Below, one piece after another: positions 720-53,365 of a stretch of DNA of 64,000 nucleotides. The notes under the pieces were generated by a model. It searched no databases, was not told the DNA's origin, and was given only the letters and a program-made list of their open reading frames with translations. Where the stretch lies: contig ONEL01000007.1 in the NCBI GenBank assembly GCA_900316835.1, positions 1 through 64,000 of the forward strand, written 5' to 3'. Source of the stretch: an uncultured Prevotellaceae bacterium (GTDB taxonomy: Bacteria > Bacteroidota > Bacteroidia > Bacteroidales > Muribaculaceae). The translations under genes and the position numbers were made by a program. Each line of letters opens with the position of its first letter. Position 1 is the stretch's first letter.

Positions 720-3700
720 ATGAAAAAATTACTTCTTTTGTTGATGGCGCTGAGTTTGTCACTGGCCCTTACTGCCAATGACAAACTCAGTCCAGGCACA
801 AAGGTGTTCTTGCAGCAACGGGCGCAAGGCATCAATGTGCCAGCCGATGCCAAGACTCCTCTTGCTAAACCCAAGGCGATGAACGGCACCGAGTTTATTG
901 AATGCTTTATCTCGCTCAATGGCTCTTCCTACTCCGAGCTTCAGGCTAATGGAGTGCAGGTGACTGGCAAATATGACGAGTTCATTACTGCTAGTGTGCC
1001 AGTACAAAAGCTGGAGCAGATTGCTAAGCTAAGCAGTGTTAAGATGGTTGCAATTGCACGCAATGCCAGGCATCACACCGATGTCGCAAAAGGCATCGTC
1101 AATGCCGACAAGGCTTGGAATGGCACTAACTATGGCCTGCCACAAGGTTTCAAGGGCGAGGATATAGTGCTTGGTATCATCGACGATGGTATTGAGTTCA
1201 ATCATCGCGCCTTCCTCAAGGCCGATGGAACCTCGCGTGTGAAGGCCGTGTACATGCCTAACGCTTCAAGTGCCAATGGTGGCACTCGCGCCGTTATTGA
1301 TGGCGTGCAACTCAGTGGCTATCAGTATACCACTCCAAGCCAAATCGCCGCACTCACATGCGACGATAGCAGTGAGAGTCATGGTACACACACCACCGGT
1401 TGTGCTGCGGGATCTCAAGTAGGCAACTATGCCGGTATGGCTCCCGAGGCCGACCTTGTGCTTGCCGGATGTGGTGCCAGCCTTACCGAGACGGCTATTC
1501 TTAATAGTGCCAAGTACATTGGCAACTATGCTAAGAACGTGCTGGGCAAGCCCTGCGTTATCAGCATTAGCCTTGGTAGCGACACTGGACCTCACGACGG
1601 CAAGAGTAGCATTTGCTTGGGATATAACCAGGTGGCAGAACAATATGGTGCCGTTATTCTGCTAGCGGCAGGTAACGAGGCCGACATCTTTGGTCATGCC
1701 ACTAAGACTCTCTCAAGCGATGATGATTACATGACTGTCATCTGCAATGTGTCAGGTGGATGGTGGGGCGGTGGTGGTACTGGTGCTTGTGACATTTGGA
1801 ATAGCACTAGCGATCCATTGCAAGTAAAGGTTCTTATCATGAGTGGTAGTAGCGTTACCTCACAGAGTGACTGGATGTCGAGTGGCTCATTCAATGGCGT
1901 GACTGTTCAAGGAGCAGTTGATCCTAATAATGGTCGCTACCAGCTCTATATCGAGTCTTCGGCTTCTAAAGCAGCTTTCGTTATAAAAGGAAAATCAGGG
2001 AATGAAATTCATGTTTACACCGACGACTACTATGCTTCACTGGCGTCGTCGGGCTCAGTGAGTGGCTACACATTGACTCCAGGCACCTATGACGGCACAA
2101 TGTGCGACGACATGACAGCCGAGAAGGTGATTAGCGTTGGCGCTCAGGCATCGCGTTCGACCGATGGCTATGGCCAGGGCGATGTGGCCTATTTCTCTAG
2201 CTATGGTACCGACTTCAATGGCGTCAACCACCCGCTGGTTACAGCTCCCGGGCACTATGTGATCTCGTCGATCAACGACTATGACTCTTATCAGTCTTCT
2301 ACTTGGTCTACAACCTTCAACGGTAAAACCTACAAGTGGGGCGAGATGAGTGGTACTTCAATGGCAACTCCGGTTACCGCTGGTGTGGTGGTGCTTTATC
2401 TTCAGGCCGACCCCACTCTCGATGTAGACCGTGTTAAGGAGATTATTACCGAAACAGCGACTCCTTATCCCGCTTCGAGCACTAGTCCTGTTAAGGCTCG
2501 TGGAGCTGGTATTATCAATGCGCTGGGCGGTATTGAATATATCCTCCAACATCAAGGTCCCACTATCATTGCTAAGCCTTCCGAGCTAGCTTTTGAGGGA
2601 TATGCCGGTGAAACTTATACTCAAACGTTAACTGTCAAGGGTTACAATCTCACCACTCCCATCACCATTGAGCCTAGTGGTGATGAGTGCTACACCGTGA
2701 CCCCAACAACCATTACTCCTGAGGAGGCTTATAATGGTGTGACTGTTACGGTGACTTATGCACCCACCGAGGCTGGCACCACTAGTGGTACACTCACTCT
2801 CTCGAGCGATGAGGCCGAGACCCAAACGGTGACCATGAGTGGCGTTGCCAAGCCACGTGTGCCCACTCTCATTGCCGACCCACAGCAGCTTTCGTTCTCG
2901 GCTAAGCTCAACAGGCCCATGAGCAAGACTATCAACCTCAAAGGCTTGTTCCTCACCAGCGATGTTACCATCACTCTCGATAACCCAAGCAACGTCTTTG
3001 CGGTGACACCCACTACTATAGCTCCTGACAGCTTCGAGGGTGAAACACCATTGCAGCTGACAGTAACATTCACTTCTGCTCAAGAAGGCAATTTCACGGG
3101 TTCTATAACCATCGCCAGCGAGGGTGCCGAGACACAAACCATTCAGCTCACCGCCAACTGCAGCGATAATGGCACTGCCAGTGATCCGTTCCTGGATCTC
3201 GCTAAGTATGAGTCAATCGACGAGGCCGGCTTCACAGGCATCTCTAAGCTCTACAAGTACACCGAGTATCCTGAGCAGGATTGCGCTTGGCTCACCGTGT
3301 CAAACTATGGCATGATGAACAACACCGCCACTCAAAAGTGGTTTACTCACGGAGGTGAGAAGAAATATGGAACAGAAAACTGGAACGCGACCGACGTGTT
3401 CTTAGGCAATACCGCCTACTTTAACGGCAGCGGTTATTACGCTAACTGGAACGAGGATTACCAGACATTCTATGTCACTAACTGTTCGCAAGTTAAGCAG
3501 TTTGCCTACAATAGTGGCTCTACCTATCCACTGCTCATGGACATCTATGAGTGCACTCTCAATGCCGATGGCTCAATCACAGCAGGCAATACTTCTATTG
3601 ACCACAAGACTAGCACTCAGTATAGCACTACCGAGATAATATCGTCGATTGAGCTTAATCCTGAGAAGATCTACAAGATTGCAATCTACAATGACTATTC

Positions 3701-4670
3701 TAGACTCTATGAGATTGGTTTCCGCATGCCTCTTGAGACAGTGGCTACTCCTGTGGCTACCGAGGCCACCAAGATTGGTGCCACTAGCTTCATTGCCAAC
3801 TGGCTACCATGCGATGGCGCTTTGAACTACACACTGCGTGTGCAGCCGGTTGTTGCGCAAGGTCTCTTTACCGAGACGTTTGCTAAATGTGAAACCGCCG
3901 GTTCGCAAAACATTGGTAACAAACTTGATGAATATACCGACAATGCTGGCTGGACAGGTTCTTCGGTCTACAGTGCCGTGGGTGGACTTCGCCTAGGTAC
4001 TGGTGCTAATGTGGGTACTATCACCACTCCAGCTATCGACCTGAGCACCTCGCCAGGTAAAGTGTATGTGAAGTTCAGCGCTAAGACTTTCACTAACAAT
4101 AGTGGTAAGAGCGATGCCGATTGCGAGTTCAAGATTTCATGTGGCGACGCTAGCGAGACAGTTGTAATTCCTGGTGCTGAAGAGAATAGCTACATGGTGG
4201 CTCTTGATTGTGCTTCGGCAGCTGGACAAAATATTAAGTTTGAAACAACTGCTGGTGGCAAGCGTGTGATTGTTACTAAGGTTGAGATTTATAACACTGA
4301 GCCTGCTACCGGTGCCGCTGTTGAGCCTATTATCATTACTAATATTGCCGACACCACAGCCTATGCCGTTACAGGTCTCTTGCCTGAGACTAGCTATAGC
4401 TTCGATGTGAAAGCAATCTACGATCCACAAGTGTTTGGTAAGGCCGAATCAAGCTGGAGCAACATGATCTTCTTCAAGACATTGAGCGCGTCTGGAATAG
4501 TTGGCGATGTTAATGGCGATGGTGAAGTAACTGGTAGTGATGTTACCGCACTCTATAACGCAATTCTTTTCAACGACTTCAGCGCGATTGTCAATGGTGA
4601 CCAAAACGGAGATGGTGAAATCACAGGTAGTGATGTCACAGCAGTCTACAACATTATATTGGGACTGTAG
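720..4670 (+). CDS. Secreted S8 (subtilisin-like) serine protease with dockerin C-terminus
   Basis: A 1316-residue protein. The start at the ATG of MKKLLLLLMALSLSLA gives a clean signal peptide. The catalytic triad is visible: Asp155 in IIDDGIEF, His221 in SHGTHTTG, Ser547 in SGTSMATP. A large insert lies between His and Ser. After the protease domain come two Ig-like beta-sandwich repeats (~630-820, each closing with TVTYAPTEAGTTSGTL-like strands), a ~185-residue module beginning DPFLDLAKYESIDEAG (~821-1004) that recurs twice in the protease at 8620-14487, a fibronectin-III-like segment (~1010-1260), and a two-repeat type I dockerin (last ~58 residues, DVNGDGEVTGSD and DQNGDGEITGSD calcium loops). 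It lacks the T9SS tail of its neighbours. A role in extracellular protein breakdown is inferred. Confidence 0.9.
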   Translation: MKKLLLLLMALSLSLALTANDKLSPGTKVFLQQRAQGINVPADAKTPLAKPKAMNGTEFIECFISLNGSSYSELQANGVQVTGKYDEFITASVPVQKLEQIAKLSSVKMVAIARNARHHTDVAKGIVNADKAWNGTNYGLPQGFKGEDIVLGIIDDGIEFNHRAFLKADGTSRVKAVYMPNASSANGGTRAVIDGVQLSGYQYTTPSQIAALTCDDSSESHGTHTTGCAAGSQVGNYAGMAPEADLVLAGCGASLTETAILNSAKYIGNYAKNVLGKPCVISISLGSDTGPHDGKSSICLGYNQVAEQYGAVILLAAGNEADIFGHATKTLSSDDDYMTVICNVSGGWWGGGGTGACDIWNSTSDPLQVKVLIMSGSSVTSQSDWMSSGSFNGVTVQGAVDPNNGRYQLYIESSASKAAFVIKGKSGNEIHVYTDDYYASLASSGSVSGYTLTPGTYDGTMCDDMTAEKVISVGAQASRSTDGYGQGDVAYFSSYGTDFNGVNHPLVTAPGHYVISSINDYDSYQSSTWSTTFNGKTYKWGEMSGTSMATPVTAGVVVLYLQADPTLDVDRVKEIITETATPYPASSTSPVKARGAGIINALGGIEYILQHQGPTIIAKPSELAFEGYAGETYTQTLTVKGYNLTTPITIEPSGDECYTVTPTTITPEEAYNGVTVTVTYAPTEAGTTSGTLTLSSDEAETQTVTMSGVAKPRVPTLIADPQQLSFSAKLNRPMSKTINLKGLFLTSDVTITLDNPSNVFAVTPTTIAPDSFEGETPLQLTVTFTSAQEGNFTGSITIASEGAETQTIQLTANCSDNGTASDPFLDLAKYESIDEAGFTGISKLYKYTEYPEQDCAWLTVSNYGMMNNTATQKWFTHGGEKKYGTENWNATDVFLGNTAYFNGSGYYANWNEDYQTFYVTNCSQVKQFAYNSGSTYPLLMDIYECTLNADGSITAGNTSIDHKTSTQYSTTEIISSIELNPEKIYKIAIYNDYSRLYEIGFRMPLETVATPVATEATKIGATSFIANWLPCDGALNYTLRVQPVVAQGLFTETFAKCETAGSQNIGNKLDEYTDNAGWTGSSVYSAVGGLRLGTGANVGTITTPAIDLSTSPGKVYVKFSAKTFTNNSGKSDADCEFKISCGDASETVVIPGAEENSYMVALDCASAAGQNIKFETTAGGKRVIVTKVEIYNTEPATGAAVEPIIITNIADTTAYAVTGLLPETSYSFDVKAIYDPQVFGKAESSWSNMIFFKTLSASGIVGDVNGDGEVTGSDVTALYNAILFNDFSAIVNGDQNGDGEITGSDVTAVYNIILGL

Positions 4671-8619: not shown

Positions 8620-11600
8620 TTATTTAAAAACTTTCTTCACTGTAGTGCGGCTACCATCGCTGTAGCGAGTGACGATGATGTTCACGCCCTGGAATGGAGT
8701 CTTGCTCATCAAGCCAGTCGAATTCACATAGTAAACATCAACCACGTCAACACTAGCCTTCACTGTGCCAATGGCTGTGGGGATGTCGGCCTTGCTGGTC
8801 GAGGTCAAGTTGAGTGGTGCCACCTTGTAGGCTCCACCCTCGGCCTTGAGAGCGGGCAACGAAGTGGTAGCGCCAGTGCGCTGAACAATAGTCTTGAACC
8901 TGTAAACGTTATCGGCATTGAGTTGGCTGGTAACATTCCCCGCCTCGTTATAGGTCCAGTCGAGACTCAGCGATCCCACAAAGCCACTGGTTGTGGGAAC
9001 GATGAAGTTCTCGGCATTCCAGTAGGCATAAGTTATCTCGCAAACCTCCTGAACCTTAGGAGTCATGAAGAAATAAACATTACCATTGTCCTTCAACTGT
9101 GCTCCGTCCTCGGTCAGGTAAGCAGGATTGAAGTTTGCCACACAATATACATTGGGGGTATAGGTGAATTTATCACCCACAGCACCCGTGGGCAGCCCTT
9201 CGCCCTCGGGCATTGCGATGGTGTAGTTGGTGGCATCGCTGTATACTCCAGTGATAGTGCCGGCATTGATCTTGTGACCCTTAGCACTGGTGATTGAAGT
9301 TACAGCCGTTTGTACTGAGCCAACTGAGAACTTTAGAGCCACCCAGTTGCTCTCGTCCCATGCTCTGCCATTTTGAGCATACTGGTCATTGCCCAGGTAG
9401 TCAATCTTGTCGCCAACGGCGGGAGCGGGAGCTATCGCATTACCCTGGTCTTTACACCACAGGTAAATAGCATCATCAACGATAGCATAATCCACAGCCA
9501 CCAGCTCATCGCTAACGGTGTAGCGATTACCTATGTGACCTTCGCTCTCAATCTGGGCTAGAGTAGCCTCGGAGGTCAAAGGCGTGCGGAAACCAATCTC
9601 TAACAAGTCGGGATAAGAGCCACCTCCAGTGAGCTGAACCTTGTAAACTTTGGTAGCATCGAGGGTCGTTGAGCTGATCACTCCATTAGAGCCTGTCTTT
9701 GTGTCAAAAGCGCTACTTGATGCGGTGACTGAACCATTAGCGTTGACGGTGCACTCATAGATTGATAGACTTGCACTGCTACTGCTATAACTATAACTAC
9801 TGCCCTTTACATAGGCCTTCACTTGAATACAGTTAGTAACATAGAATGATTGACTATTACTGCCGTAAACCGAATAAGCCGAACTGCTACCAAAGTAAGG
9901 AGTCTGGCCAAGGAAAATATCACTTGAACTCCAGCTATTGCCATATTGAGTTAGTGAGCCACTCTCAAACCAGTTCTGGTTAGCGTCGGCCTGCTTTACG
10001 CCATAGTTTGACAAGGTGAGCCATCCACATTCTTGGTCGGCATACTCGGTATACTTATAAATAGTTTGCATACCACTCACGCTGGCACCTGCCTCATCAA
10101 TAGTCTCATATTTAGCAATGTCGAGATAAGGATCGCTGGCAGTGCCACCGTCGGCACTTACACCAATCAATGTTATCGTTTCAACAAGGTCTCCACTTGC
10201 AACTGTCACTGTGCCGGTGAAAGTGCCCTCGGTTTCGGAGCTGAAAGAAATAGTAACGTCGCTGCCCGCCAGGGCATCGCTAATGCTTATGCTCGCAGGA
10301 TTAACGGCAAATACGCCATGCTGGTCATTGAGGGTCACTATTACATTATCATTCAACAATCTTCCTTTCACATTGAATGTAGCAGTTGTAGTTTCTCCTG
10401 GAGCAGCACGCATCGAGAGTTCGGTTGGTGCCACATTTAGAGATGGCTTGTTGAGCGGAGTCTTGAAACCTATCTCATAGAGATCAGAGTAATCATTGTA
10501 AACACTTACTTTATATATCTTGCTTGCATCCAACGTCCCAGAAGTAAGCACTTCGGTAGATTTAGTTGTGTTTTGAAGTGTCTCAATAGCTGTTGTTGCA
10601 GCTGTGAGTGTACCATCAGCGTTCTCGGTGCACTCATAAATGTAAATTTTCAAGGGATATGTAGTATTGCTTCGGTTGTAGGCATATTGCTTAATCTGAG
10701 TGCAATTAGTCACATAGAAGTGTTGATAAGCTTCAACCCACCCTGCGGCGTAACTTGTATTACTACCAAAGTAACTATCGTCACCTAAAAATACATCATT
10801 AGCATTCCATGATGTTGAAGTATTTTTAGTTTTCTCTATGCTAAACCAGTTTTGGTTAGCATCGGCTTGCTGCGCTCCGTAGTTCGATACGGTAAGCCAT
10901 GCACAAGCATCGTCGGCGTACTCGGTGTATTTGTAGATACTACTCATGCCACTGACAGTGGCACCTGCCTCGTCGATAGTGGCATACTTAGCGATGTTAA
11001 GGTAAGCATCGCTTGCAGTACCACCATTGCTGATACTTGCATTCAAGTTTACAGTTTGACTTGCTGCGCCATCACTGGCTACTGTTACCGTGCCGGTATA
11101 GTCGCCTTCTTCCTCGGCAGTGAAGTTAACTGTGACATTCACCGCATTAGTCTCGCTAATGCTTGAAGCAGGAATAGTAGCCGAACCAAGAGCGAATGCT
11201 CCACTTGCATCATTGAGGGTTAGAGTCACATCCTCGTTGATAAAACGACCAGTAACAGCAAATGTTTTAGTTCTATCACTATCGGTAAACGAAAGTGCCG
11301 ATGGGCTAACTATCAAAGTTGGTGTAGCGGCTTGGGCTGTGCCAGTGATGGGCACGGTTACCGAGCTTGCGCCGTTGCTGCTCAGGGTGAGGGTGGCATT
11401 GGTGGTGCCTGCCGCGATAGGAGCGTAGGTCACAGTGATTGTGCCACCGGTCGTGGTGAGCGAAGTCTTGTCGATGCTGTAAACATTGGCTCCGCTAATT
11501 GCCGCAGTGATGTTCTGCGTCAGGTTAGTACCGGTCACGGTCACAGCCTGAGTGTAGGTGCGAGTAGCGTAGGCACCGGTGAAGGTCACCGATGTTGGGT

Positions 11601-14487
11601 TGGCTGTGATTGCCGGGCCTTGTGCCGTACCTGTGATGGGTACTGTCACGCTGCTTGCGCCGGTGCCTGTGGTGGTGAGCACGAGGTTGGCGGTCGATGT
11701 GCCACCTGCGGTGGGTGCCCATGTCACGGTAACGGTGCGTGATGCCGAGCCGTTGCTGCTTGTGATTGTTGTGGGCGACACGCTGTAGAAGCCGTTGGCA
11801 TCGCCACTGATTGCAGCGGTGATATTGCCTTGCAGGTTAGTACCGGTCACGGTCACGGTCTTGGTGTAGGTGGTGCCACTGTTGCCGGTGAAGCTCAGGC
11901 TAGTGGGGCTAGCGGTGATTGCAGGGGCGGTGTAAACACCCTTACCGGTGAGCGAAACAGTCACGCTCGAGGCATTGCTGCTGGTGAGAGTCACGATGCC
12001 GGTGTAAGTTTGCGACACATTGGCAGTGGGAGCGAATGTTACGGTAACTGTTGCACTCGCGCTTCCGTCGCTGTTTTTAGAGATTGATGTTTTGTCGATA
12101 GTGTAGTTATTTCCACTCTTGCTTAGGGAGATATTACCCTCAAGGTTCTCACCAGTGACGGTGAAAGTTTGAGTAGTAGTAGTTCCAGCAGTCACATTGC
12201 CAAAGTCGATGCTGGTGGGAGTGGCAGTGATAGTGGGACCACTTGTGGCTCCTAAGATGTATTGGATACCTTTTATAGCATTGATTTTGCCGTGAGTTCC
12301 AAAAGTTTTTGCTCCATGTCCCGCGCCATTGGTCCACTGGTCGGTGTCCCAGGTGGCAGCCATTACCTCCTTGATATAATCGGGCGTTGGTGTCTTGCCT
12401 GCCTCAACACATGCCTGCAACCATTGAGCTATGATACCTGAAGCGCAAGGTGTTGCCATCGAGGTCCCTTCCATAGCGGCGTAGGGAGAAGTGCTACTAT
12501 TTACTACAAGGTCACTGTTGTAATTGCTACCATAATAGCTGTAGTTGTCGACTGATGTCGTGTGATAGTGGTTCACGCCAGCCACGATGCGAGCACCAGG
12601 AGCGTTGATGTGTGGAAGAGCAGTTCCTAAAGGTCCATACCCAGCAGTCTGCCAACTTGAGAACGATGCGTGATCACCAATGTTGGGATATTCGCTACTA
12701 TAATCATGTGATGTGCCGTTATAGTCAGTTATTGAATTCTTTGTGACATAGGCACCTACCGAGATGACCTTGCTGTAAGTAGCATTGTCGCTCACTGAGC
12801 ATTCGTCGTTACCTTGAACAAGGTTGTAACTATTAGCATAGGTACTACTCAAATTTAAGTCGGTACCGAACCAGCAATAAGTATTTTCCCACATGTCAAT
12901 GATGGTTGAAGAATTAGTGCTAGTGGGATATACCGACACACATAAGGCATAATTACTTGTTGCAACTGATCCACTCGTGCTACCACTTGTAGTTTGCATT
13001 GTTGGTGCATATATTTGCCAATAATATTTGTTGTTGTTAGAGTCTTGTGTGCGAGTAATTCTAATTTTTCCATAATCGCCATATTGATTATACCAACTAG
13101 TGCTTGATTTAAAATATTGTGCCAAACCTGTGCTTCCGGTAAGGCTTATTGTTGTTCCAGTAGTGTATGCGTCACTTGAATAGACAATTGCGCCAGTATT
13201 GACATTTACGACATGAAATCTCAATGAAGTAGCTACATTTGCGGTGCGGGCATAAGCCGTTATAGTTGGCATATATAATTGATAATTACCATCTGCATCA
13301 GAAAAAGAACGCTGAACGTTAGCTAGCATGGGCTTGCTACTTGTTGAAGTCCCGCTAGCGTACATTCCACCACCATTAGAAGTCCCCATCTCAACAAATG
13401 GAGTGGCACGCATTCCATCATTACTTGCGGCATAGACAATAATGTGGTTATTTCCGGCATATTGATTAACAATACTGGCTATAGTTCCTGTTCCGTCGTG
13501 TGGACCAACCTGAGAGCCAAGACTGAGGCTGATAACACAGGGCTTACCTACTTCGTCGGCATAGTTACAAATGTTCTGAATAGCGGTACCAATCGATGTT
13601 GTGTAAAGACTGCTTAAACCTGCAAGCACGAGGTCGGCCTCGGGTGCCATACCGCCATAGGTTGCATTGGCATGATCGTCGGTAACAGTTACTGTGGAGC
13701 CATTTACTATTACACTCGAACCACCTGCTGTGGTGCTGGTGTGCGTGCCGTGATCTTCAGCATTCGTGTCGTAGGTGAGGCTGGCAATCTGAGAAGCCGA
13801 AGAGTAAGTTGTCAAGCTTGTGCTATTGCTACCACTCAATTTATAAGCACGCTTAATACGCGTGTTGCCGTTCTTGTCCTTAAAAGCGATGTGAGTGAAG
13901 TCAATACCAGTGTCGATCACACCAAGGATAACGTCCTTACCAGTGTACTGCTTTGTCAATCCTAGAGCTCGCGCGGCTGCACTATTGCTAATAGCATCAC
14001 CAGCCTGGGTTACTGAGCGTTGTAGGTCGTTTAGGGGCTGCAAAACCTCGGCAACCTCAATGCCAATGACATTGTCCAAGTCGGCAATTTTCTCAATTTT
14101 GTCGGCTGGCAACATCATTGCCGCAAGGTTGTCGTTGAACTTAGTTTGCATCACAGCGCCCATTGCCTCAATGGCACTAAATCCACCACTTTTGACCTTG
14201 ACGAAAGCCGAGATCATTTCCACTCCGTTCACCATTTCGGCCTCGGCAATTTTGCGGTCGACTCGTTTTTTCATTAATTGCTCGTCCTTGAATAGAATCA
14301 AAGAATCTCCTGCTGCCTGCTGTAAGTCGGCAACGGTCATTTTGTCTTTAAGCCTTGGTAGCTTGATTTCTCCCCTTCGCTCACTTAGGAACATCTGAGT
14401 CCCTGCCGACAGCTTGTCGATGTTATCGGCAAATGCTATCGATGTCGCGAAGATTGCGACAAGGAAAATTAATAATGATTTTCTCAT
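8620..14487 (-). CDS. Giant secreted S8 serine protease with Ig-like repeats and T9SS-like tail
   Basis: A 1955-residue protein with signal peptide MRKSLLIFLVAIFATSIAFA. The S8 triad is Asp192 (VIDTGIDF), His246 (DHGTHTS) and Ser676 (GTSMATP). After ~residue 750 come four Ig-like repeats of about 95-105 residues (ITATPTS-IDF / ITASPTS-LSF / ITANPTS-VTF / LIVSPSA-LSF), then a ~185-residue module (~1157-1344), a fifth Ig-like repeat, a second copy of the module (~1452-1634), an OB-fold-like region, and a final FQGVNIIVTRYSDGSRTTVKKVFK that resembles a T9SS type A tail. The same module occurs in the protease at 720-4670, but that paralogue ends in a dockerin instead. The family is certain; the substrate is unknown. 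Confidence 0.9.
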   Translation of the reverse strand: MRKSLLIFLVAIFATSIAFADNIDKLSAGTQMFLSERRGEIKLPRLKDKMTVADLQQAAGDSLILFKDEQLMKKRVDRKIAEAEMVNGVEMISAFVKVKSGGFSAIEAMGAVMQTKFNDNLAAMMLPADKIEKIADLDNVIGIEVAEVLQPLNDLQRSVTQAGDAISNSAAARALGLTKQYTGKDVILGVIDTGIDFTHIAFKDKNGNTRIKRAYKLSGSNSTSLTTYSSASQIASLTYDTNAEDHGTHTSTTAGGSSVIVNGSTVTVTDDHANATYGGMAPEADLVLAGLSSLYTTSIGTAIQNICNYADEVGKPCVISLSLGSQVGPHDGTGTIASIVNQYAGNNHIIVYAASNDGMRATPFVEMGTSNGGGMYASGTSTSSKPMLANVQRSFSDADGNYQLYMPTITAYARTANVATSLRFHVVNVNTGAIVYSSDAYTTGTTISLTGSTGLAQYFKSSTSWYNQYGDYGKIRITRTQDSNNNKYYWQIYAPTMQTTSGSTSGSVATSNYALCVSVYPTSTNSSTIIDMWENTYCWFGTDLNLSSTYANSYNLVQGNDECSVSDNATYSKVISVGAYVTKNSITDYNGTSHDYSSEYPNIGDHASFSSWQTAGYGPLGTALPHINAPGARIVAGVNHYHTTSVDNYSYYGSNYNSDLVVNSSTSPYAAMEGTSMATPCASGIIAQWLQACVEAGKTPTPDYIKEVMAATWDTDQWTNGAGHGAKTFGTHGKINAIKGIQYILGATSGPTITATPTSIDFGNVTAGTTTTQTFTVTGENLEGNISLSKSGNNYTIDKTSISKNSDGSASATVTVTFAPTANVSQTYTGIVTLTSSNASSVTVSLTGKGVYTAPAITASPTSLSFTGNSGTTYTKTVTVTGTNLQGNITAAISGDANGFYSVSPTTITSSNGSASRTVTVTWAPTAGGTSTANLVLTTTGTGASSVTVPITGTAQGPAITANPTSVTFTGAYATRTYTQAVTVTGTNLTQNITAAISGANVYSIDKTSLTTTGGTITVTYAPIAAGTTNATLTLSSNGASSVTVPITGTAQAATPTLIVSPSALSFTDSDRTKTFAVTGRFINEDVTLTLNDASGAFALGSATIPASSISETNAVNVTVNFTAEEEGDYTGTVTVASDGAASQTVNLNASISNGGTASDAYLNIAKYATIDEAGATVSGMSSIYKYTEYADDACAWLTVSNYGAQQADANQNWFSIEKTKNTSTSWNANDVFLGDDSYFGSNTSYAAGWVEAYQHFYVTNCTQIKQYAYNRSNTTYPLKIYIYECTENADGTLTAATTAIETLQNTTKSTEVLTSGTLDASKIYKVSVYNDYSDLYEIGFKTPLNKPSLNVAPTELSMRAAPGETTTATFNVKGRLLNDNVIVTLNDQHGVFAVNPASISISDALAGSDVTISFSSETEGTFTGTVTVASGDLVETITLIGVSADGGTASDPYLDIAKYETIDEAGASVSGMQTIYKYTEYADQECGWLTLSNYGVKQADANQNWFESGSLTQYGNSWSSSDIFLGQTPYFGSSSAYSVYGSNSQSFYVTNCIQVKAYVKGSSYSYSSSSASLSIYECTVNANGSVTASSSAFDTKTGSNGVISSTTLDATKVYKVQLTGGGSYPDLLEIGFRTPLTSEATLAQIESEGHIGNRYTVSDELVAVDYAIVDDAIYLWCKDQGNAIAPAPAVGDKIDYLGNDQYAQNGRAWDESNWVALKFSVGSVQTAVTSITSAKGHKINAGTITGVYSDATNYTIAMPEGEGLPTGAVGDKFTYTPNVYCVANFNPAYLTEDGAQLKDNGNVYFFMTPKVQEVCEITYAYWNAENFIVPTTSGFVGSLSLDWTYNEAGNVTSQLNADNVYRFKTIVQRTGATTSLPALKAEGGAYKVAPLNLTSTSKADIPTAIGTVKASVDVVDVYYVNSTGLMSKTPFQGVNIIVTRYSDGSRTTVKKVFK

Positions 14488-32673: not shown

Positions 32674-33354
32674 TCATAGTCCCAAAATGATGTTGTAGAC
32701 GGCGGTGACGTCGCTACCGGTCACTTCGCCATCGCCATTTTGGTCGCCATTAAAAATCTCGGTATCTTGACCAAAGAGAATGTGGTTGTAGAGAGCCGTT
32801 ACGTCACTGCCTGTAACCTCACCATCGCCGTTTACATCGCCGGCAACAGGCACATTATCACCTTCTACAAAAACTTCATTAACATTAAAGATACTAGTCG
32901 ATAACGCTGCTGAAGCTGAACTTAAAAAATCATGTCCGTCACCAATATACTCATAAAGATAATAATACCTACCATCACCGGTATGATAATAGCGGATAAA
33001 GAAACCGCCAGCTGCTCTCTCCACAACGTGGCATAGATATGAACTGTTTATGTCAGAAGTAACGAATTGGGCCTCCTCAAGATATCCGTGGGCGGCTCTG
33101 TTATAAATCAGAATCTTGTCAGATGAGACTTGTACAAAGCACCAAAGGAAATTATCTTCGGTTGATGCCGTGGGAGTTAATTTAATCTGATCGAAAATGC
33201 TTGCGTTTGGGTCAAAATAAACATACTTGCCGTTAATTATCAGCTGATACCAGTGGATGGGAAGAGTGGTGGAGCTGGGTGTTGTCACAAATGGCAATGC
33301 CCGCGCTGCAAACGTCACCATCAGCAATGAGACAATGAGTAAGATTTTTTTCAT
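32674..33354 (-). CDS. Small secreted protein with dockerin C-terminus
   Basis: A 226-residue protein with signal peptide MKKILLIVSLLMVTFAARA. Residues ~30-165 are beta-rich with many aromatics (WYQLIINGKYVYFDPNA, DNFLWCFVQVSSDKILIYN, YYHTGDGRYYYLYEYIGDG), in the style of small carbohydrate- or ligand-binding beta domains, but I do not recognise the family. The last 58 residues are a two-loop type I dockerin (DVNGDGEVTGSD, DQNGDGEVTGSD) ending NIILGL. Its 3' end and the bases past its stop are almost identical to those of the next gene (33753-37574), which suggests recent exchange. A -7 box lies 45 bp upstream. Confidence 0.8.
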   Translation of the reverse strand: MKKILLIVSLLMVTFAARALPFVTTPSSTTLPIHWYQLIINGKYVYFDPNASIFDQIKLTPTASTEDNFLWCFVQVSSDKILIYNRAAHGYLEEAQFVTSDINSSYLCHVVERAAGGFFIRYYHTGDGRYYYLYEYIGDGHDFLSSASAALSTSIFNVNEVFVEGDNVPVAGDVNGDGEVTGSDVTALYNHILFGQDTEIFNGDQNGDGEVTGSDVTAVYNIILGL

Positions 33355-33752: not shown

Positions 33753-36700
33753 TCATAGTCCCAAAATGATGTTGTAGACGGCGGTGACGTCGCTACCGGT
33801 CACTTCGCCATCGCCATTTTGGTCGCCGTTAAAAATCTCGGTATCTTGACCAAAGAGAATGTGGTTGTAGAGCGCGGTTACGTCACTGCCTGTTACCTCG
33901 CCATCGCCGTTTACATCGCCAGCCACTGCAGGAGTCACCTCGGTCACAGTGGTGCTGGTGAGCCTGAAGAAGAAGTCGCGAGTGGCAGTGATGTCGTAGT
34001 CGGGCAACTGCTGTCCGTTGTTCCAGTTGTTGAAGATGAGATGGTAGTTGCCTCCCTCGGTGTCGAGCAAGAACACTTTGTAGCTTTTTCCAGCCACGAT
34101 AGAGTCGCCCACGGTTGCCTCACCAGGCCAAGCGCCAAAGAGCTCGCTATCACCCCAGGCATAAAGTCCCAGAGCATCCCATCCTGTTTGGTCATCGACA
34201 AAGACGTAGTGTTTAGAAGCTGGAATCTTGGGTAGCTCTCCGCTCACGGCGAAGTCATCGATGCCAATGGCCATAGCACTCTGAGCAGCGGTCCCGCTTG
34301 CCACACTGATGTTCCATGCAAGGTAAAGATCGCATCCTCGTGCAATGGGCACTTCAAGCACATCGCTCACCGCTACTGTCTCACCAGGCACGCTGGCATA
34401 GCCTGCTGTCTCGCTGTCGGGGGCCAGATAGGTGTGGAACTTGTCGCCCGCGCTAGTCCAGTTGCGTCCGTCAATAGAGTAGTAGAGTTGAACCGCAAAG
34501 CCAGCGGTATTTGAGCCCTTGCGGTATTTCTCCACGTTGTAGCTCACGTTCACGTTCTCGATATTCTTCTTGCCAGTGTTGAGCAAGTGAGTATAGAGGT
34601 TCACACAACGGGTGCCGTCGGCCACGCCGGTGGAAATGCCACCCAGTGCGCGGTCCTCGGTGTCGTCGGCACCAAAGTTCCAAGTACCATTCTTGGCATT
34701 GCTGGGCAGGTTCACACCACCGCTGTACATCGTGTTGGCATCGGCTTGGTCGAAGCGTCCCACAGTGCGTGGAGCCGTTGTGATGCGGTCAATGCGCCAA
34801 GCCTCGGGCAGGGTGGCGGTTGCGGCGTCACCCATGGTGTTGAATGCCTCGCTGGCATTAAGGGTTTCCTCGTTGAATTCGATTGCGGGATAAACTACTA
34901 CCTCGGTGGTAGCGGTAGCTACTGTAACGGTAGCATCGGCGCTGAAGTTGCCAGTTGTGGCATTAACGTTGAATGTGCCATTAGTGCCATCGCTGGTAAA
35001 GGTGTTGTTCTCATTGATAGCACCACCACCACTCAGCGTCATCACTACAGGACTCTCGGGCTCAATTTCCATGTCATACTGGTCGCGTACTGTAACCTTG
35101 TAGTTCACTTGGGCAGCAGTGTGGTCGACATAGTTGGTAAAGCCATTCAAGGCATTGCTGGCATAGGTGCGCATGCTAGCCGCGTCGGTAGCGCTGAGGC
35201 TACTTGGCGCATAAGTTATTGAGGCGGGATCCTCGCCGAAGATTAAGCCATATTCCATTGCAGCGGCCATGTAGGTAGCCTTGAGTGTGGGGTGACGGTC
35301 GTCGAGGAACCATGTGTTAGTGCCCTCGCTTCCCTCAGCGTCGTAGACAGCCTGATAGGCCACACCCACAGGGCATAGTGTCACGCCCAGGTCGGCAGCC
35401 ACATCTTGATAATTCTTTACGAAAGTGCTGTTGAAAGCCGTGTAGTTGCTCCAGTCTCCACTGTAGGCCCAGTTCACGGGCACAATGATGATGGCATTGG
35501 GGTTAGGGCAATAATCACGTATGTAGTCTACCCATCGCTTCACGTTGGCACGGAAAGTCTCTATGTCGGTTCGTGGTAGCGAGCTTTGCTCTTGCAGGAT
35601 AATGTGGCTCCATGCCTGGCTACGCACAAGCATCTTGGCGCCAGGATTGCCATCCTCGGCCACTCCATCGCCCTCATCCCAATGAGCCTTTAGCGACTTG
35701 CCAAGCAGTGTGTGCTTGGTCCAGTTGGCGTTCTTGCCCATAGCAGTGGCAATGTCGTTAAACACAGCATCCTGGTCGTTGTAGTAGATTAAACTATTGT
35801 TGAGCGAGAGCACTTTCACCTGCTCGGGCAATTCTGGCACAAGCACCACGTTAGCGGGTTGTAGAGTCATGGTAGTAGCTACCGAGGCACTCTTCACGAG
35901 CGAGAATTCGCCAGTGTTGAGGTTGAAGGTAACGTCATAGGTTCCTGGAGCTGTCGACACCATTCCAGTCTCTCCCTTGATGAGTGTGCCACTGGTGTTG
36001 TCGCCTGCGAGGTCGCTCTCGGCTCCCCACACGCCCACCATGCCCAGCTTCTGGTATATGCGCCAGTGGCTGAAGCCATCGCTTCCGGCAGGCATAGTCA
36101 CCATGCCTGTGAAGACGCCCTCGGCTGTGAGAGTGAGTTTGCCACTGGCATCCATGTAGTCCCAGCCAGTGTTGTCGCCAATGACGTAGACCTCGGTCAG
36201 GTCGCCCTCATCGTCATTGCCCTGTAGTAATAGCGTAGCCTCGCCATTGGCAATGGTGAGGACAATGCGCTTGCATTCGTAGGTGTTACCGCCACACGAG
36301 ATGTTGTCGTTAGTGCCAAGCACCAGAGCATAGGGTGTGTCGAGCAGTGCCATGGAGCCGTTGCTACCATAGTTGCATGCCGAGCTCCAGCTGGCATCGG
36401 CCACCTTGAAGGCTCCGCTCAGCGTCTTGTCATAGAGAGCATACACTCCCTCGCCCTCGTCGCTGAATTCCCACTCGGCTACAGCACCCCAGCTGTTCAC
36501 CTCGCCACGCAAGTAGATACCTGAAGCCACAAAGGGAGGTCGCGATGGGTCTACCCATCCTGTGTAGTTTTGCGGGTCGGTAATCTCGGTCACCTCACTA
36601 GCGGTGAGGCACAGGTAATAGTCGCGGTTGGCGCTGATGCTGTAAGTCAAGTTCTTGGAGCCACCGTCGGTGAAGTTGAGAGTGTGGCTGTTGCCATCCA

Positions 36701-37574
36701 TGTCGATAGCCCACACTTTGTAGGGAACACCATTTACAACGGCGCTGCTTTGGGGCAAATCACCGTTAAGGTAGAGGTTACTCCACTTGGTCACGTCTTC
36801 CACATAGATGTAGGCACTCTGGTCTTGCGAGGCAAAAGTGGCGTCAATCACCACATTGTCGAGTGCCAAACCCATGGCCTTGCTGGGGCTAGAGCCGGCA
36901 GCCACGCTGATGTTCCATGCCAGATACATCACCTCGCCGGCAGCAAGGTTCACCTTGAGTTGCTTGCCGGCAACCGCTGTGGTGGTGATGGGCACTGTGG
37001 CGGCGCCTGCCGTGGCAGCGTCGGGTGCGAAATAGTTGTAGAAATCAGTCCCGGCACTGGTCCAGTTAGTGCCATCGGTCGAAGTGTAGAGTTGCACAGC
37101 AAAGCCCTCGGGGTTGTCGCCATTGCGATACTTCTCGATGTCGTAGCTAAAGGTGAGCTTACTCAGTGGCTCGCTAGCGGCATTCTTGATGCTTGTCATC
37201 ACGTTGATGCATCGCGTGCCGTCGGCAACTGTGGTTGATAGTCCTCCCACCGAGCAATCGCTGGGCTCGGCACTCGACTGGAAGTTCCAAGTGCCATTCT
37301 TGGCATTGCTGGCAAGGTTAGTGCCGCCAGTGTACATCACCGTGCTTGACGCGCTGGCAAAACTGCCCACGGTACGCGCGGCTGTGAGATTGCGGTCCAC
37401 ACGCCATCCCTCGGGCATGGTGAGAGTGGCTGCAGTGCCGTCCCACATACTGTCGAAGTTCTGCGTGATGTGTGCTTGAGAAGCCGTCACCTCAAGCGCA
37501 TCTTGTGCCTGCAAGGCATTGCTCCAACCAGTGAGCAATGTGGCAGCCACAATCAGTAAGAAATGCTTTTTCAT
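33753..37574 (-). CDS. Multi-domain secreted protein: DUF4886/SGNH-like domain, CBM26-like modules, dockerin
   Basis: A 1273-residue protein with a signal peptide (MKKHFLLIVAATLLTGWSNALQA). A ~210-residue beta module occurs twice (~25-245 and ~925-1135; landmarks GWRVDR, RTVGSF, NAKNGTWNF, GFAVQLY, YLAWNISVA). A CBM26-like starch-binding module is clear near the end (TGWDALGLYAWGDSELFGAWPG) and a degenerate copy lies at ~250-340. SusE/SusF-like segments (IYLRGEVNSWG, VYVIGDNTGW) follow. The middle (~600-790) resembles DUF4886, an SGNH-hydrolase-like family: VKVLSLNNSLIYYND as block I, HIILQEQSS, and DDRHPTLKATYMAA with the Asp-x-x-His pair. It ends in the same dockerin as its neighbour. A surface carbohydrate esterase or binding protein is the best guess. 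Confidence 0.8.
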   Translation of the reverse strand: MKKHFLLIVAATLLTGWSNALQAQDALEVTASQAHITQNFDSMWDGTAATLTMPEGWRVDRNLTAARTVGSFASASSTVMYTGGTNLASNAKNGTWNFQSSAEPSDCSVGGLSTTVADGTRCINVMTSIKNAASEPLSKLTFSYDIEKYRNGDNPEGFAVQLYTSTDGTNWTSAGTDFYNYFAPDAATAGAATVPITTTAVAGKQLKVNLAAGEVMYLAWNISVAAGSSPSKAMGLALDNVVIDATFASQDQSAYIYVEDVTKWSNLYLNGDLPQSSAVVNGVPYKVWAIDMDGNSHTLNFTDGGSKNLTYSISANRDYYLCLTASEVTEITDPQNYTGWVDPSRPPFVASGIYLRGEVNSWGAVAEWEFSDEGEGVYALYDKTLSGAFKVADASWSSACNYGSNGSMALLDTPYALVLGTNDNISCGGNTYECKRIVLTIANGEATLLLQGNDDEGDLTEVYVIGDNTGWDYMDASGKLTLTAEGVFTGMVTMPAGSDGFSHWRIYQKLGMVGVWGAESDLAGDNTSGTLIKGETGMVSTAPGTYDVTFNLNTGEFSLVKSASVATTMTLQPANVVLVPELPEQVKVLSLNNSLIYYNDQDAVFNDIATAMGKNANWTKHTLLGKSLKAHWDEGDGVAEDGNPGAKMLVRSQAWSHIILQEQSSLPRTDIETFRANVKRWVDYIRDYCPNPNAIIIVPVNWAYSGDWSNYTAFNSTFVKNYQDVAADLGVTLCPVGVAYQAVYDAEGSEGTNTWFLDDRHPTLKATYMAAAMEYGLIFGEDPASITYAPSSLSATDAASMRTYASNALNGFTNYVDHTAAQVNYKVTVRDQYDMEIEPESPVVMTLSGGGAINENNTFTSDGTNGTFNVNATTGNFSADATVTVATATTEVVVYPAIEFNEETLNASEAFNTMGDAATATLPEAWRIDRITTAPRTVGRFDQADANTMYSGGVNLPSNAKNGTWNFGADDTEDRALGGISTGVADGTRCVNLYTHLLNTGKKNIENVNVSYNVEKYRKGSNTAGFAVQLYYSIDGRNWTSAGDKFHTYLAPDSETAGYASVPGETVAVSDVLEVPIARGCDLYLAWNISVASGTAAQSAMAIGIDDFAVSGELPKIPASKHYVFVDDQTGWDALGLYAWGDSELFGAWPGEATVGDSIVAGKSYKVFLLDTEGGNYHLIFNNWNNGQQLPDYDITATRDFFFRLTSTTVTEVTPAVAGDVNGDGEVTGSDVTALYNHILFGQDTEIFNGDQNGDGEVTGSDVTAVYNIILGL

Positions 37575-49558: not shown

Positions 49559-52500
49559 ATGAAACAGAACAATTACTCATTTCTTAAGTGCAAGTTGCGG
49601 TCTTGGTGGCTGCTAGTGTTGCTCATGCTCTTCATGGGTTCGGGAGTGGCACAAGCTGTCGACTACGTCACGCTCAACACCGGCGCAGGCTACACCCATT
49701 CCTACCTGGTGAGCAACTGCAGTGGCAAGCATGTGACGGTGAATGGCACCGGCACGGTGACGCTCAACGTGAGTGGCGAACTCAACATCAAGGAACTTTT
49801 TGCTCCAACTGCAACTGTCAACATCGTGCTGAGCAATAGCGCCATGTTCCGTATTGAGCAAGATGCCGACAACGAGAATGCCGCCGTTAATTGCAAGAAC
49901 ATCACTATCACCAACAGTAGCGGTGCCAGCCAGGGGCACGTGATTGTCACCGCTCCCCACACCGGCATCGCCATTCAGGAAGGCGGCAAGGTGCAGGTGA
50001 ACTATCTCTCGCTATTGAGCGTGACCTCTCACACAGCGAGTGCGGTGATTGCTCAAAACAATTCTGTGCTTGAGGTAAACAATGGTTTGCTTTCACTCAA
50101 GGGTGCTACCCATGCGTTCAGACCTTGGGATAAGAATTTTGTAACTGGCATATTTACTGTTAAGGGTTCTTATAGCAATGTGGAAGTGCGTGGCAGCATT
50201 GGTGGTGATTGCACCATCCAGTCGTTTAACGTGGAGGGCTGCAGCTACATGAACATCATTGGCAATAACCGGGAAACGGCGGTTCATGCCCACGATGTGA
50301 ACATTACTGGTGGCAAGGTTTATGTAACCCAAACTGGTGGCACACCGCAATATACCGACGCTCACGGTCTTTTTGCCACTGAAAATGCCACTATCTCTTA
50401 TTGCCAGCTCGAAGCCAACTCGGCTGCCGGCCATGCCATTAGGGTGCAAGGCCCGCTGGTGATTAACAATGCCAATGTGAGGGCTATTGGCGGCAAGAAT
50501 GGTGTCATGACGTGGAGTGCCCAGTTGCTTGGCAATGCCGAGAATAGCAATGTCTTGGCTGTGGGTAATGAGTATGGGTTCTATAGCCAATCGACCATCG
50601 ACATCGCCAGCCACTCGCTCATTGGTCGCGGTGCCACCAGCGGCGTCACGGCATCGGTCATCAATGTCACCCCACAGCCTGGTTGCTCCTACCAGGCCTA
50701 TGGCACCTACCCTTTCCTGGCTTTGAAGCAGTACAACCTGTCACCAGCAATCAATTTGCTCAGGCCAACGAGGATTATCGGCTCGCTGTCGACTAGCAAC
50801 ACCAACTACAAGTTTGAGGGCGGTAGCGCTATCAATTACAACATCCCCAGCGTGTCGAGCGACCCTTGTAAAGTCTTTGCCCGCCCCAATGGCACAACTC
50901 TCTATAGTGGCCTTGTGGAGCTCAAGCAGCCACACATATACAACATTTCGGGCAATGATGCCTATGGCGACTTTGGATTGCTGAAAAGCGGACAAACCCA
51001 GATTACCTCGCCCGGCAAGACCGAGACGTTCGACTTCTCGGCATTGAACCCCTATCTCACCTACGACAATCCTACCAAGACGGTCAAGCTATACAAGAAG
51101 CAACACAACGGGAATAGTAATGAGCAAATACTAGTGCAGGAGTGGGTGGGAACCACCATGAACAGCCTCAGTCGCACTTTCTATGATAACGATGTGGAAT
51201 ATTTGTTCTGGTGTGAGGTCTCGCTCGACGCCTACGAGGGCTATCTGGAGACAAGTCATTATCTTGTGCGCAAGGGTGCCAACGCGGCCACTCCCGTTAA
51301 GCCTATCCTGATACTTAGCAACAACACCATTCGCGTGACCAACGGTCGCGCCGATCAGGAATATGCCGTTGTGCCACAATCACAGTGGAGCGCCTACCTG
51401 AGCGACATCACCTCGCCCGGGCCGTCGCTGGAGACGTGGTGGGTCAACTCAGTTAAACCCACTGCCAATGGCGCTGTCAGCCTCACCGGCTTGGGCACGC
51501 AGGGAGTTGTCAACCATGTGATCACTCGCTACAAGGAAACCGCGGGAATGCTCGCCGGCTCAATACACCGCAACAGCGAGATATTCTACGGCTCATCGGT
51601 ACAAGTGCGAGGCGCCGAGCTGGAGCTCACTGCCGTGGGTAATAACTTTGTCACCCCCGACTTTGAGAACACCTACAGCACCAAACTCAATGGTGTGATA
51701 AAGGTTGAGGCAAAGCCCGTTCCTGCCAATGCCACCAACTATCAGGGTGTGCTTGGCAGCAGCTGGGGATGCACCTACATGCAAGATGGTGTGCTGCCAT
51801 TCAAGTTCTATGCCAACGCAGCATGCACAACGCCGCTCGATAACAACACCCTATACACTACAGTCTATGCCAAGGCCAACCGCGAGGGCTACAAGTGGAG
51901 TTTGTTTGCCGACGTATATAGTGAAGACCCCGAGAATGATAACATCGCTACCTCTAAGGCCGAGGTGAACATCAGCGATGCCAACGGCGTGTTCCGCCCC
52001 TATAAGCTCATTGTGAACCACGGCGAGGATCTCACCACTCACTCCACGACGGTGACCGGCATCCCGTTTGAGATAGTGCCTGCTAATGCTACATTCGATG
52101 GTGATGTGACAGTGAATCTGGTAACCGCGATTGGCCCATTCCCGAGCTGGGCACAGCAAGCTAACCGCATCCCCACCTTTGTCGTTGACAAAACCAACCG
52201 CACCATCGACATGATACCAAACACCCAGCCGATGCTCTATGATCACAATTACCGCTTTACCGTGCGCCACATGGTGAATGGCACTACCTATGGCTCGGGC
52301 GGGCTCAGCGTGCAAGTGGTGAGGGCGCCCCTCAGTAGCTTCAATATCTCACCGGCACAGGCCACTCTCAACTTGGGTCAGTCGCTGCCACTCGAAATCA
52401 CCAGCGACCTGCCCGAAGCCTGGAGGGAATACGAGAACCCCACCATGGCAAGCAGCAACGAGCAAGTGGCTACAGTGACCTACGACAATAGTCTGCGCAC

Positions 52501-53365
52501 CTTCGTGGTCACTGCCACCGACGACCCGGCAATGATTGGCAAGTCGGCAACTATCACCATCACCATCAACGGCATTGAGGAAACATGCCAGGTGACGGTG
52601 GGTGGCGAGGTCTACCCCATCACAATTGCGGGAACCAAGGTGAATTCGGTCAATCAAGACGACGTGCTGGGCGACGGCAAGGTGCGATATGCCGCCGGCA
52701 CACTCTACCTCAATGGTGTGCAAGCAGTCATGGGAAGCCAAGACGCTTTGCGCTTCACTGCAAGTGAGACACTGCCTGTGCTCAACATCGATGTTGAGGG
52801 CGAAAATATGCTTCATTCTAATAATGGTGTAGGTATTTCGCTGCAAGGTGACGCAATAGTTTCGGGCTCTGGAACACTAATTGGTAGTGGCGCTATCTAC
52901 GGACTTCTCGGCTCAAGTGCCAACCTTACAGTGACCGGAGATGCCCTTGTTCACACCGTAGCCAATTCCATTGGTATGCGCATAGGTTCACTTTATGTAA
53001 ATAGCAAGAATGCGCAGGTTAAAACAAATGGTTTTAACAACAGCTCACTATTAGTAGTTAATAAAGACATGTGGGGCAACATCACCGAGCCGGCAGGTGC
53101 CTATCTTGATGCCGACGGCTACGTGAGCCTGGGTGGCAACGTGGTTAAAAACCAGTATGTTGTTATCAATGGCATGGCTGGGCAATCGGTAGTTCCCGGC
53201 GATGTGAACGGCGATGGCGAGTGCACCGGTAGTGATGTTACCGCCCTCTACAACCACATCCTCTTTGGCGAGGATACTCCCATCTTTAATGGTGATCAAA
53301 ATGGTGATGGAGAAGTTACCGGTAGCGATGTGACAGCTGTTTACAATATCATTTTGGGACTGTAA
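49559..53365 (+). CDS. Large secreted beta-rich protein with dockerin C-terminus
   Basis: A 1268-residue protein from the ATG of MKQNNYSFLKCKLRSWW, giving a long signal peptide that ends MGSGVAQAVD. The N-terminal ~330 residues have the irregular strand-turn rhythm of a right-handed parallel beta-helix (GNNRETAVHAHDVNITGGKVYVTQ). The middle is a series of beta-sandwich-like segments; ~915-1000 (LNLGQSLPLEITSD, ATVTYDNSLRTFVVTATDD) resembles a Big_2-like domain, and ~1005-1200 again looks beta-helical. The last 58 residues are the shared dockerin (DVNGDGECTGSD, DQNGDGEVTGSD, ending NIILGL). No catalytic site is recognised. A surface adhesin or polysaccharide-binding role is a guess. Confidence 0.8.
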   Translation: MKQNNYSFLKCKLRSWWLLVLLMLFMGSGVAQAVDYVTLNTGAGYTHSYLVSNCSGKHVTVNGTGTVTLNVSGELNIKELFAPTATVNIVLSNSAMFRIEQDADNENAAVNCKNITITNSSGASQGHVIVTAPHTGIAIQEGGKVQVNYLSLLSVTSHTASAVIAQNNSVLEVNNGLLSLKGATHAFRPWDKNFVTGIFTVKGSYSNVEVRGSIGGDCTIQSFNVEGCSYMNIIGNNRETAVHAHDVNITGGKVYVTQTGGTPQYTDAHGLFATENATISYCQLEANSAAGHAIRVQGPLVINNANVRAIGGKNGVMTWSAQLLGNAENSNVLAVGNEYGFYSQSTIDIASHSLIGRGATSGVTASVINVTPQPGCSYQAYGTYPFLALKQYNLSPAINLLRPTRIIGSLSTSNTNYKFEGGSAINYNIPSVSSDPCKVFARPNGTTLYSGLVELKQPHIYNISGNDAYGDFGLLKSGQTQITSPGKTETFDFSALNPYLTYDNPTKTVKLYKKQHNGNSNEQILVQEWVGTTMNSLSRTFYDNDVEYLFWCEVSLDAYEGYLETSHYLVRKGANAATPVKPILILSNNTIRVTNGRADQEYAVVPQSQWSAYLSDITSPGPSLETWWVNSVKPTANGAVSLTGLGTQGVVNHVITRYKETAGMLAGSIHRNSEIFYGSSVQVRGAELELTAVGNNFVTPDFENTYSTKLNGVIKVEAKPVPANATNYQGVLGSSWGCTYMQDGVLPFKFYANAACTTPLDNNTLYTTVYAKANREGYKWSLFADVYSEDPENDNIATSKAEVNISDANGVFRPYKLIVNHGEDLTTHSTTVTGIPFEIVPANATFDGDVTVNLVTAIGPFPSWAQQANRIPTFVVDKTNRTIDMIPNTQPMLYDHNYRFTVRHMVNGTTYGSGGLSVQVVRAPLSSFNISPAQATLNLGQSLPLEITSDLPEAWREYENPTMASSNEQVATVTYDNSLRTFVVTATDDPAMIGKSATITITINGIEETCQVTVGGEVYPITIAGTKVNSVNQDDVLGDGKVRYAAGTLYLNGVQAVMGSQDALRFTASETLPVLNIDVEGENMLHSNNGVGISLQGDAIVSGSGTLIGSGAIYGLLGSSANLTVTGDALVHTVANSIGMRIGSLYVNSKNAQVKTNGFNNSSLLVVNKDMWGNITEPAGAYLDADGYVSLGGNVVKNQYVVINGMAGQSVVPGDVNGDGECTGSDVTALYNHILFGEDTPIFNGDQNGDGEVTGSDVTAVYNIILGL

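Follow-up and report, generated by a model that had tools for sequence, protein, structure and literature searches.

What could lead four secreted proteins with unrelated bodies to share nearly the same C-terminus? The question arises from a stretch of 64,000 nucleotides (hereafter the window) in the genome of an uncultured Bacteroidales bacterium (G000; 2.84 Mb in 38 contigs, 98.25% complete). The protein at 720..4670 on the forward strand (P0001) is an S8 subtilase (PF00082, 92.5 bits) with a signal peptide, beta modules and a C-terminal dockerin (PF00404, 34.7 bits, residues 1262-1313), which occupies 4500..4670 on the same strand including the stop codon and belongs to sub-type B. The other three are a small secreted protein of 226 aa (32674..33354, reverse strand; PF00404, 46.8 bits), a secreted protein of 1273 aa with an SGNH-like DUF4886 domain (33753..37574, reverse strand; PF16227, 30.8 bits; PF00404, 42.5 bits) and a large repetitive secreted protein (49559..53365, forward strand; PF00404, 37.9 bits). 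By tail parsing and pairwise comparison, their C-terminal dockerins, stop included, are all of sub-type A and lie at 32674..32844 (reverse), 33753..33923 (reverse) and 53195..53365 (forward). Neither the 226-aa protein nor the protein at 49559-53365 has any Pfam match besides the dockerin. All four translations finish with GSDVTAVYNIILGL-stop, and the original prediction of a shared end on unrelated bodies was borne out, general beta content aside.

The tails had been called dockerins from the letters alone, and this is what they are. All of them (4 of 4) match PF00404, the type I dockerin, at 34.7-46.8 bits, above the Pfam cut-off of 22.9. The P0001 tail has the duplicated 12-residue calcium loop (D1, N/D3, D5, D12), represented by DVNGDGEVTGSD and DQNGDGEITGSD, with a helix after each. 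Its AF2 model (pLDDT 96.6) places the helices at 14-26 and 45-55, and when it was compared with PDB by Foldseek, the best 32 matches were all dockerins (TM 0.64-0.84; E 0.005-0.7), the E-values being modest (best 5e-3) because the chain is short. In a profile search the same tail matched neither TIGR04183 nor PF18962, the type IX sorting domain. Over the last 57 codons (stop counted), pairs of window tails agree in 47-57 of 57 residues and in 124-165 of 171 bases. For example, the tails at 32674-32844 and 33753-33923 encode the same protein with 6 of 171 bases changed.

The tail is not restricted to these four proteins; such a restriction, together with a genome free of cohesins, would have spoken against a shared assembly system. 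When the first tail was searched against its own genome, it turned out that there were 71 matches on 25 contigs, and the PF00404 model likewise gave 71; about 50 of the 71 share 74-100% identity with the query over nearly the full tail length. Such abundance is far beyond chance, and contamination of the bin was rejected as its source, for the tails lie on 25 contigs, the window's own included. The copies fall into two main sub-types (...HILFGQDTEIFNGDQ... and ...YILYNDSSAIVNGDQ...) and a diverged group of about a dozen copies. We parsed both loops by profile in 64 copies and read the proteins in stretches around the matches. The dockerin is C-terminal in 50 of the 64, and 26 of the 50 finish exactly with YNIILGL. 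Conservation right up to the last residue, as had been proposed, is not general: the C-terminal endings vary (GL, GI, LD, LN, VE, LSD, HYD), and many tails continue 1-5 residues beyond ...GL. The remaining copies (14 of 64) are internal, near the N-terminus, or in frames incomplete within the stretch read. Internal or near-N-terminal dockerins exist, for instance, in L061, L064, L069 (two), L082 and L090, and proteins of this kind do not have type-IX-like C-termini by inspection (some frames being incomplete). In several proteins the dockerin directly follows the signal peptide. Such use at varied positions fits a docking module, not a C-terminal sorting signal. Separately, one contig (G000:C31:3000-36445) shares 98-99% DNA identity over about 17 kb with part of G016:C14, from the bin of another species (loci L050, L098, L096 and L163 for the two contigs). 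Three dockerin genes of the G000 type lie in the shared part, and by its sequence the contig may be a recent transfer or misbinned.

We next consider the cohesins. PF00963, the Pfam cohesin model, gave zero matches in this genome even at E 10, let alone at its curated cut-off, and taken alone it pointed to a cohesin-free genome, half of the outcome that would have spoken against a shared system. In the other genomes of the genus it gave weak matches in 23 of 36, some relatives lying above the curated cut-off. The cohesin-free reading fell once genus relatives supplied the profile: a first version, built solely from proteins of G010, G011 and G030, matched proteins of the own genome with 92 and 72 bits. 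Widened to 21 domains, three of them from the own genome, the profile found six domains there at 54-147 bits (three being rows of the profile) and one remnant. These six domains are in five proteins, two encoded on contig C20 and three on C11. When the 21-row profile was run against the PDB sequences, its matches were almost exclusively cohesins, and 13 of its 21 rows match PF00963. Besides, the model of a C11 cohesin (pLDDT 97.1) has cohesins as all of its best 27 PDB matches (best E 2.9e-7; TM up to 0.77). By genus profile and fold, the domains are thus filed as cohesin-like. A collection scan with a single protein gave three named loci, labelled Porphyromonadaceae, Prevotellaceae and Muribaculaceae.

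The five cohesin proteins differ in architecture. Contig C11 encodes an anchor-type protein of 1032 residues (BspA-LRR, 4xBig_2, Coh, Doc', Coh), an LRR–Coh protein of 471 residues with a dockerin-like end, and a Coh–Doc adaptor in a 228-residue frame. The dockerin of this adaptor shares its type with the enzyme tails. Contig C20 encodes two tandem LRR–Doc–Coh proteins with ends ...LPAGIYIVGGKKVMVK and similar. Profile search and reading around the matches gave at most two cohesins per chain in this genome. A whole-genome search had been proposed, in which many tagged proteins plus a few cohesins would support a surface complex, and the numbers fall out in this way, six cohesin-like domains against about 70 dockerins. 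The original prediction of a tag read by one surface cohesin is supported as to the cohesin and fails as to the number, which is at least six domains in five proteins.

In relatives the set is wider. SP–6xCoh–Doc proteins exist in G010, G011 and G030, scaffoldins of the 6xCoh-Doc and 3xCoh-Doc kinds in five relatives (the same three, G028 and G034), and LRR–Doc–Coh–tail and LRR–Coh–Doc'–Coh–tail proteins elsewhere among them. The anchor (Coh-Doc'-Coh) adjoins a Coh–Doc protein in G002, G018, G025, G032 and G036, where this was read directly (the Coh–Doc frame of G036 being incomplete or longer). In several further genomes such a pairing is suggested by match positions.

Several observations concern the cohesin proteins themselves. 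The Doc' between paired cohesins (VTVTDVV...NPxPF...ITVTDV) is alike from one species to the next and is not tied to the local dialect described below; it was seen at L145:2500-5598 (C11) and in L125, L128, L131, L132, L133 and L162, and is perhaps an intramolecular or structural module. The remnant (L070:660-959; C11:15162-15459) joins a piece of cohesin to the latter half of a dockerin, and has the look of a decayed duplicate of the cohesin genes around C11:24-26 kb. In another Bacteroidales family, G039:C25:208000-224000 (L127) contains frames of 2467 and 1239 residues with several cohesin-like domains each, the 1239-residue frame ending in a type-IX-like tail; this genome has 38 dockerin matches and apparently an independent large scaffoldin system.

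To see how widely the two modules go together, we summarized their distribution by profile searches. Within the genus, which is a gut/rumen Bacteroidales lineage, dockerins are present in 37 of 37 genomes, in dozens of copies each, and cohesins in 36 of 37, and the dockerin counts per genome range up to about 87 in the lists (the highest are at-least values). Among 159 genomes of the order Bacteroidales, cohesins exist in 13 and dockerins in 45, and all the 13 cohesin carriers have dockerins (Fisher p = 1.8e-8, kinship ignored). Genomes of independent families with many of both include G039 and G084. In two further genera of the family to which the own genus belongs, these searches found no cohesins and no dockerins, and three genomes (G130, G131, G152) have many PF00404 matches, mostly beginning inside the model, with no cohesin found by the wider profile.

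The dockerins also differ between species in a specific way. Within each loop unit we take positions 10/11 and 17/18 to be the contact positions, as in clostridial type I dockerins. In the own genome, positions 10/11 are GS/GS in 54 of 64 copies and positions 17/18 are YN/YN in 61 of 64. G015 has VS/VS and IN/IN respectively in 21 of 21 copies, G002 mostly IS or IT with IN, G006 mostly ID at 17/18, and G010 SA with TH, and the residues are more mixed in G025, G032, G011 and G030. The copies of the relatives come from the top of the match lists, and therefore their uniformity is possibly overstated. On these alignments, the predicted contact residues are uniform within the own genome and different between species.

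For the functions of the dockerin proteins, we ran a Pfam scan on roughly 60 of them from the own genome. The carbohydrate-related cargo includes four GH13 amylases, CBM26 starch-binding modules, GH53 and two GHL10, and the proteases include four C10, two S8 and two M6. Further annotations are three N-acetylmuramoyl amidases, FGE-sulfatase-like, non-specific endonuclease, NAGPA and Cthe_2159. CotH is carried by four dockerin proteins (L054, L073, L090, L091), and many carriers have BspA-type leucine-rich repeats (L050, L051, L052, L053, L055, L074, L088). Among the roughly 60 proteins scanned there is no cellulase family such as GH5, GH9 or GH48, which a cellulosome proper would have. Enzymes with dockerins and proteins with cohesins occur in one genome, as in cellulosomes and amylosomes, and the cargo profile recalls an amylosome that is also strongly proteolytic.

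How the complex might reach the surface was approached through the type IX tails (TIGR04183, cut-off 23 bits). The genome encodes a type IX machine with SprA and three PorU-like sortases; the latter lie in tandem at G000:C25:32310-43982 (first copy L228) with 944, 725 and 710 bits, all above the NCBIfam cut-off. For the two cohesin proteins of C20 the tail scores are 22.3 (L056) and 14.1 bits, for the C11 anchor there is no TIGR04183 match, and for L122, the G001 orthologue of a C20 cohesin protein, the score is 27.9 bits, above the cut-off. From these borderline tails on the own cohesin proteins we infer surface anchoring: judged by sequence, cohesin proteins with type-IX-like tails probably reach the surface and are held there via type IX secretion. 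The dockerin proteins have Sec-type N-termini, usually without a type IX tail, and no recognised outer-membrane export signal was found on them. The original prediction that the dockerin tail never occurs with a type IX tail holds in the window and fails in the genome, as L074 (C26) contains both a dockerin and a true type IX tail (33.8 bits) in one protein. The two window proteins said to have type IX tails, at 2-415 and 8620-14487, are below the cut-off (18.6 bits) or unmatched, and their tails are of this type by motif resemblance only. The latter is P0005 (8620..14487, reverse strand), an S8 protease without dockerin and a paralogue of P0001 (34-49% identity by BLASTP over the catalytic and beta modules). 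Its C-terminus is type-IX-like by motif resemblance, with no TIGR04183 match, and the two paralogues are a natural pair for comparing two delivery routes.

Explanations other than docking were weighed against these data. The likeness of the tails might follow from recent duplication of the domain, or from gene conversion, with no common partner, and some neighbouring pairs are indeed near-identical in DNA, such as the 6 changes in 171 bases between the tails starting at 32674 and 33753. However, in a comparison of 52 tails the mean difference at fourfold-degenerate sites is 56%. Saturation under the codon use of the tails would give 65%, so the sites have gone about 86% of that distance, yet protein identity stays at 85%; for sub-type A alone, the fourfold difference is 53% and the protein identity 96%. 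Fourfold sites this close to saturation in proteins so alike indicate that selection, not recent copying, keeps the tails alike: they are mostly old copies held alike by purifying selection at the protein level. Contact positions constant inside the own genome and the G015 sample, yet differing between species, also argue against recent copying, which is largely refuted by the fourfold divergence and as a full account is highly improbable. The original prediction had offered, as one option, a tail read by a sorting machine. The tail would then act in sorting or export, recognised in place of a type IX domain by machinery for secretion or surface attachment, with no part for cohesins. This would agree with the 50 of 64 copies in which the last helix is followed by only a few residues before the stop, with the Sec-type N-termini of tailed proteins that usually lack a type IX tail, and with paralogous S8 proteases bearing either the dockerin or a different tail. 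But the obligatory C-terminal position that marks a type IX domain is not seen here (14 of 64 copies internal or N-terminal, partly in incomplete frames), no single exact end residue is kept, the dockerin of L074 precedes a true TIGR04183 tail, and the two-helix fold is that of cohesin-binding dockerins, with which cohesins co-occur. A C-terminal sorting signal was rejected on the N-terminal copies, and we regard a machine-read tail of any kind as improbable.

Docking itself could also take place without a surface anchor, if the complex forms but stays periplasmic, or leaves via vesicles or as free complexes. The missing outer-membrane export signal on dockerin proteins fits this, as do the type IX tails of the own cohesin proteins, which are under the curated cut-offs. 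The cargo, in contrast, is typical of extracellular degradation (CBM26 amylases, S8, C10 and M6 proteases, BspA repeats), the type IX machine is encoded, and the orthologous cohesin protein of G001 is above the TIGR04183 cut-off; a complex confined to the periplasm or released seems unlikely to us.

The data are best explained by a calcium-dependent, probably surface-anchored degradative cohesin–dockerin complex of the cellulosome or amylosome kind, a reading that we consider likely on the strength of sequence comparison and structure models. In such a complex, the calcium-binding type I dockerin tail would dock some 65-70 secreted proteins, including amylases, starch-binding proteins, proteases, CotH, amidases and leucine-rich-repeat proteins, onto the bacterium's own diverged cohesins. 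The anchors, LRR-Doc-Coh-tail and LRR-Big2-Coh-Doc'-Coh-tail, would probably be held at the surface through type IX secretion, and the small Coh-Doc adaptor could lengthen the chain. The outcome would be a cellulosome- or amylosome-like surface complex in a Gram-negative gut bacterium, with species-specific contact residues. As for the crossing of the outer membrane, a question raised by cargo without a type IX tail, the Sec-exported dockerin proteins might bind cohesins in the periplasm and ride to the surface with the type-IX-tailed cohesin proteins. This is a tentative suggestion and somewhat doubtful, and titles and abstracts in the literature gave nothing relevant on passengers of type IX secretion that lack the C-terminal domain. 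If it is true, the species-specific dockerin would mark proteins for co-export and for assembly alike.

Cohesin–dockerin assemblies are a textbook trait of a few Gram-positive degraders of fibre and starch, and Bacteroidales are thought to rely on SusCD loci and single-protein type IX secretion. To our knowledge, cohesin–dockerin systems are known almost only from clostridia-type bacteria. If the docking reading is right, modular complexes on the surface are built in gut and rumen Bacteroidales too, and have been overlooked because the Pfam cohesin model often misses the cohesins. Dockerins of undefined role in rumen Bacteroidetes would become a directly testable system, and new cohesin–dockerin pairs with differing contact residues would be supplied.

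The original prediction that a system outside clostridia would be new is partly anticipated. Dockerins are known from rumen Bacteroidetes, their role being termed undefined (PMC7480376), and cohesins are noted in certain Bacteroidetes bins (PMC6071333). These bins are of the same phylum and habitat type, with dockerins on glycosidases and other modules, and the parts available describe no type-IX-linked anchors, adaptors or species dialects (PMC7480376, PMC6071333). One type-IX-rich rumen member of the Bacteroidetes is reported to have neither dockerins nor cohesins (PMC5831590), and a 2024 survey of cellulosome bacteria has 'Bacteroid-' in two reference titles only (PMC11557425). Judged against the open-access literature, the novelty of a Bacteroidales cohesin–dockerin system is provisional.

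Compared with known systems, the tail shares with the type IX domain (TIGR04183/PF18962) its place on secreted surface proteins of the same genome, some cohesin proteins included. The type IX domain, however, serves sorting and folds as a beta-sandwich; the tail is a calcium-binding dockerin with two helices, and L074 has both. With the cellulosomes of clostridia and Ruminococcus flavefaciens the system shares the folds of cohesin and type I dockerin, the Coh-Doc adaptor, multi-cohesin scaffoldins (here in genus relatives, 6xCoh-Doc), and dockerins on LRR and CotH proteins. It differs in being Gram-negative, in having no GH5, GH9 or GH48 among the roughly 60 proteins scanned and no SLH or sortase-type anchor seen, and in the conserved non-dialect Doc' between paired cohesins. 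As for the amylosome of Ruminococcus bromii (PMC9112005 and PMC5814915, as far as their available parts describe it; also PMC6118326), that bacterium is Gram-positive with other anchoring. The present system has anchors with type-IX-like tails, a cargo that is rich in LRR proteins and proteolytic as well, and cohesins that Pfam does not detect. Within the same limits, both systems have dockerins on starch-degrading enzymes and starch-binding proteins, and many dockerins for few cohesins; the amylosome is a cell-surface complex, to which the present system is likened on its genes and predicted location.
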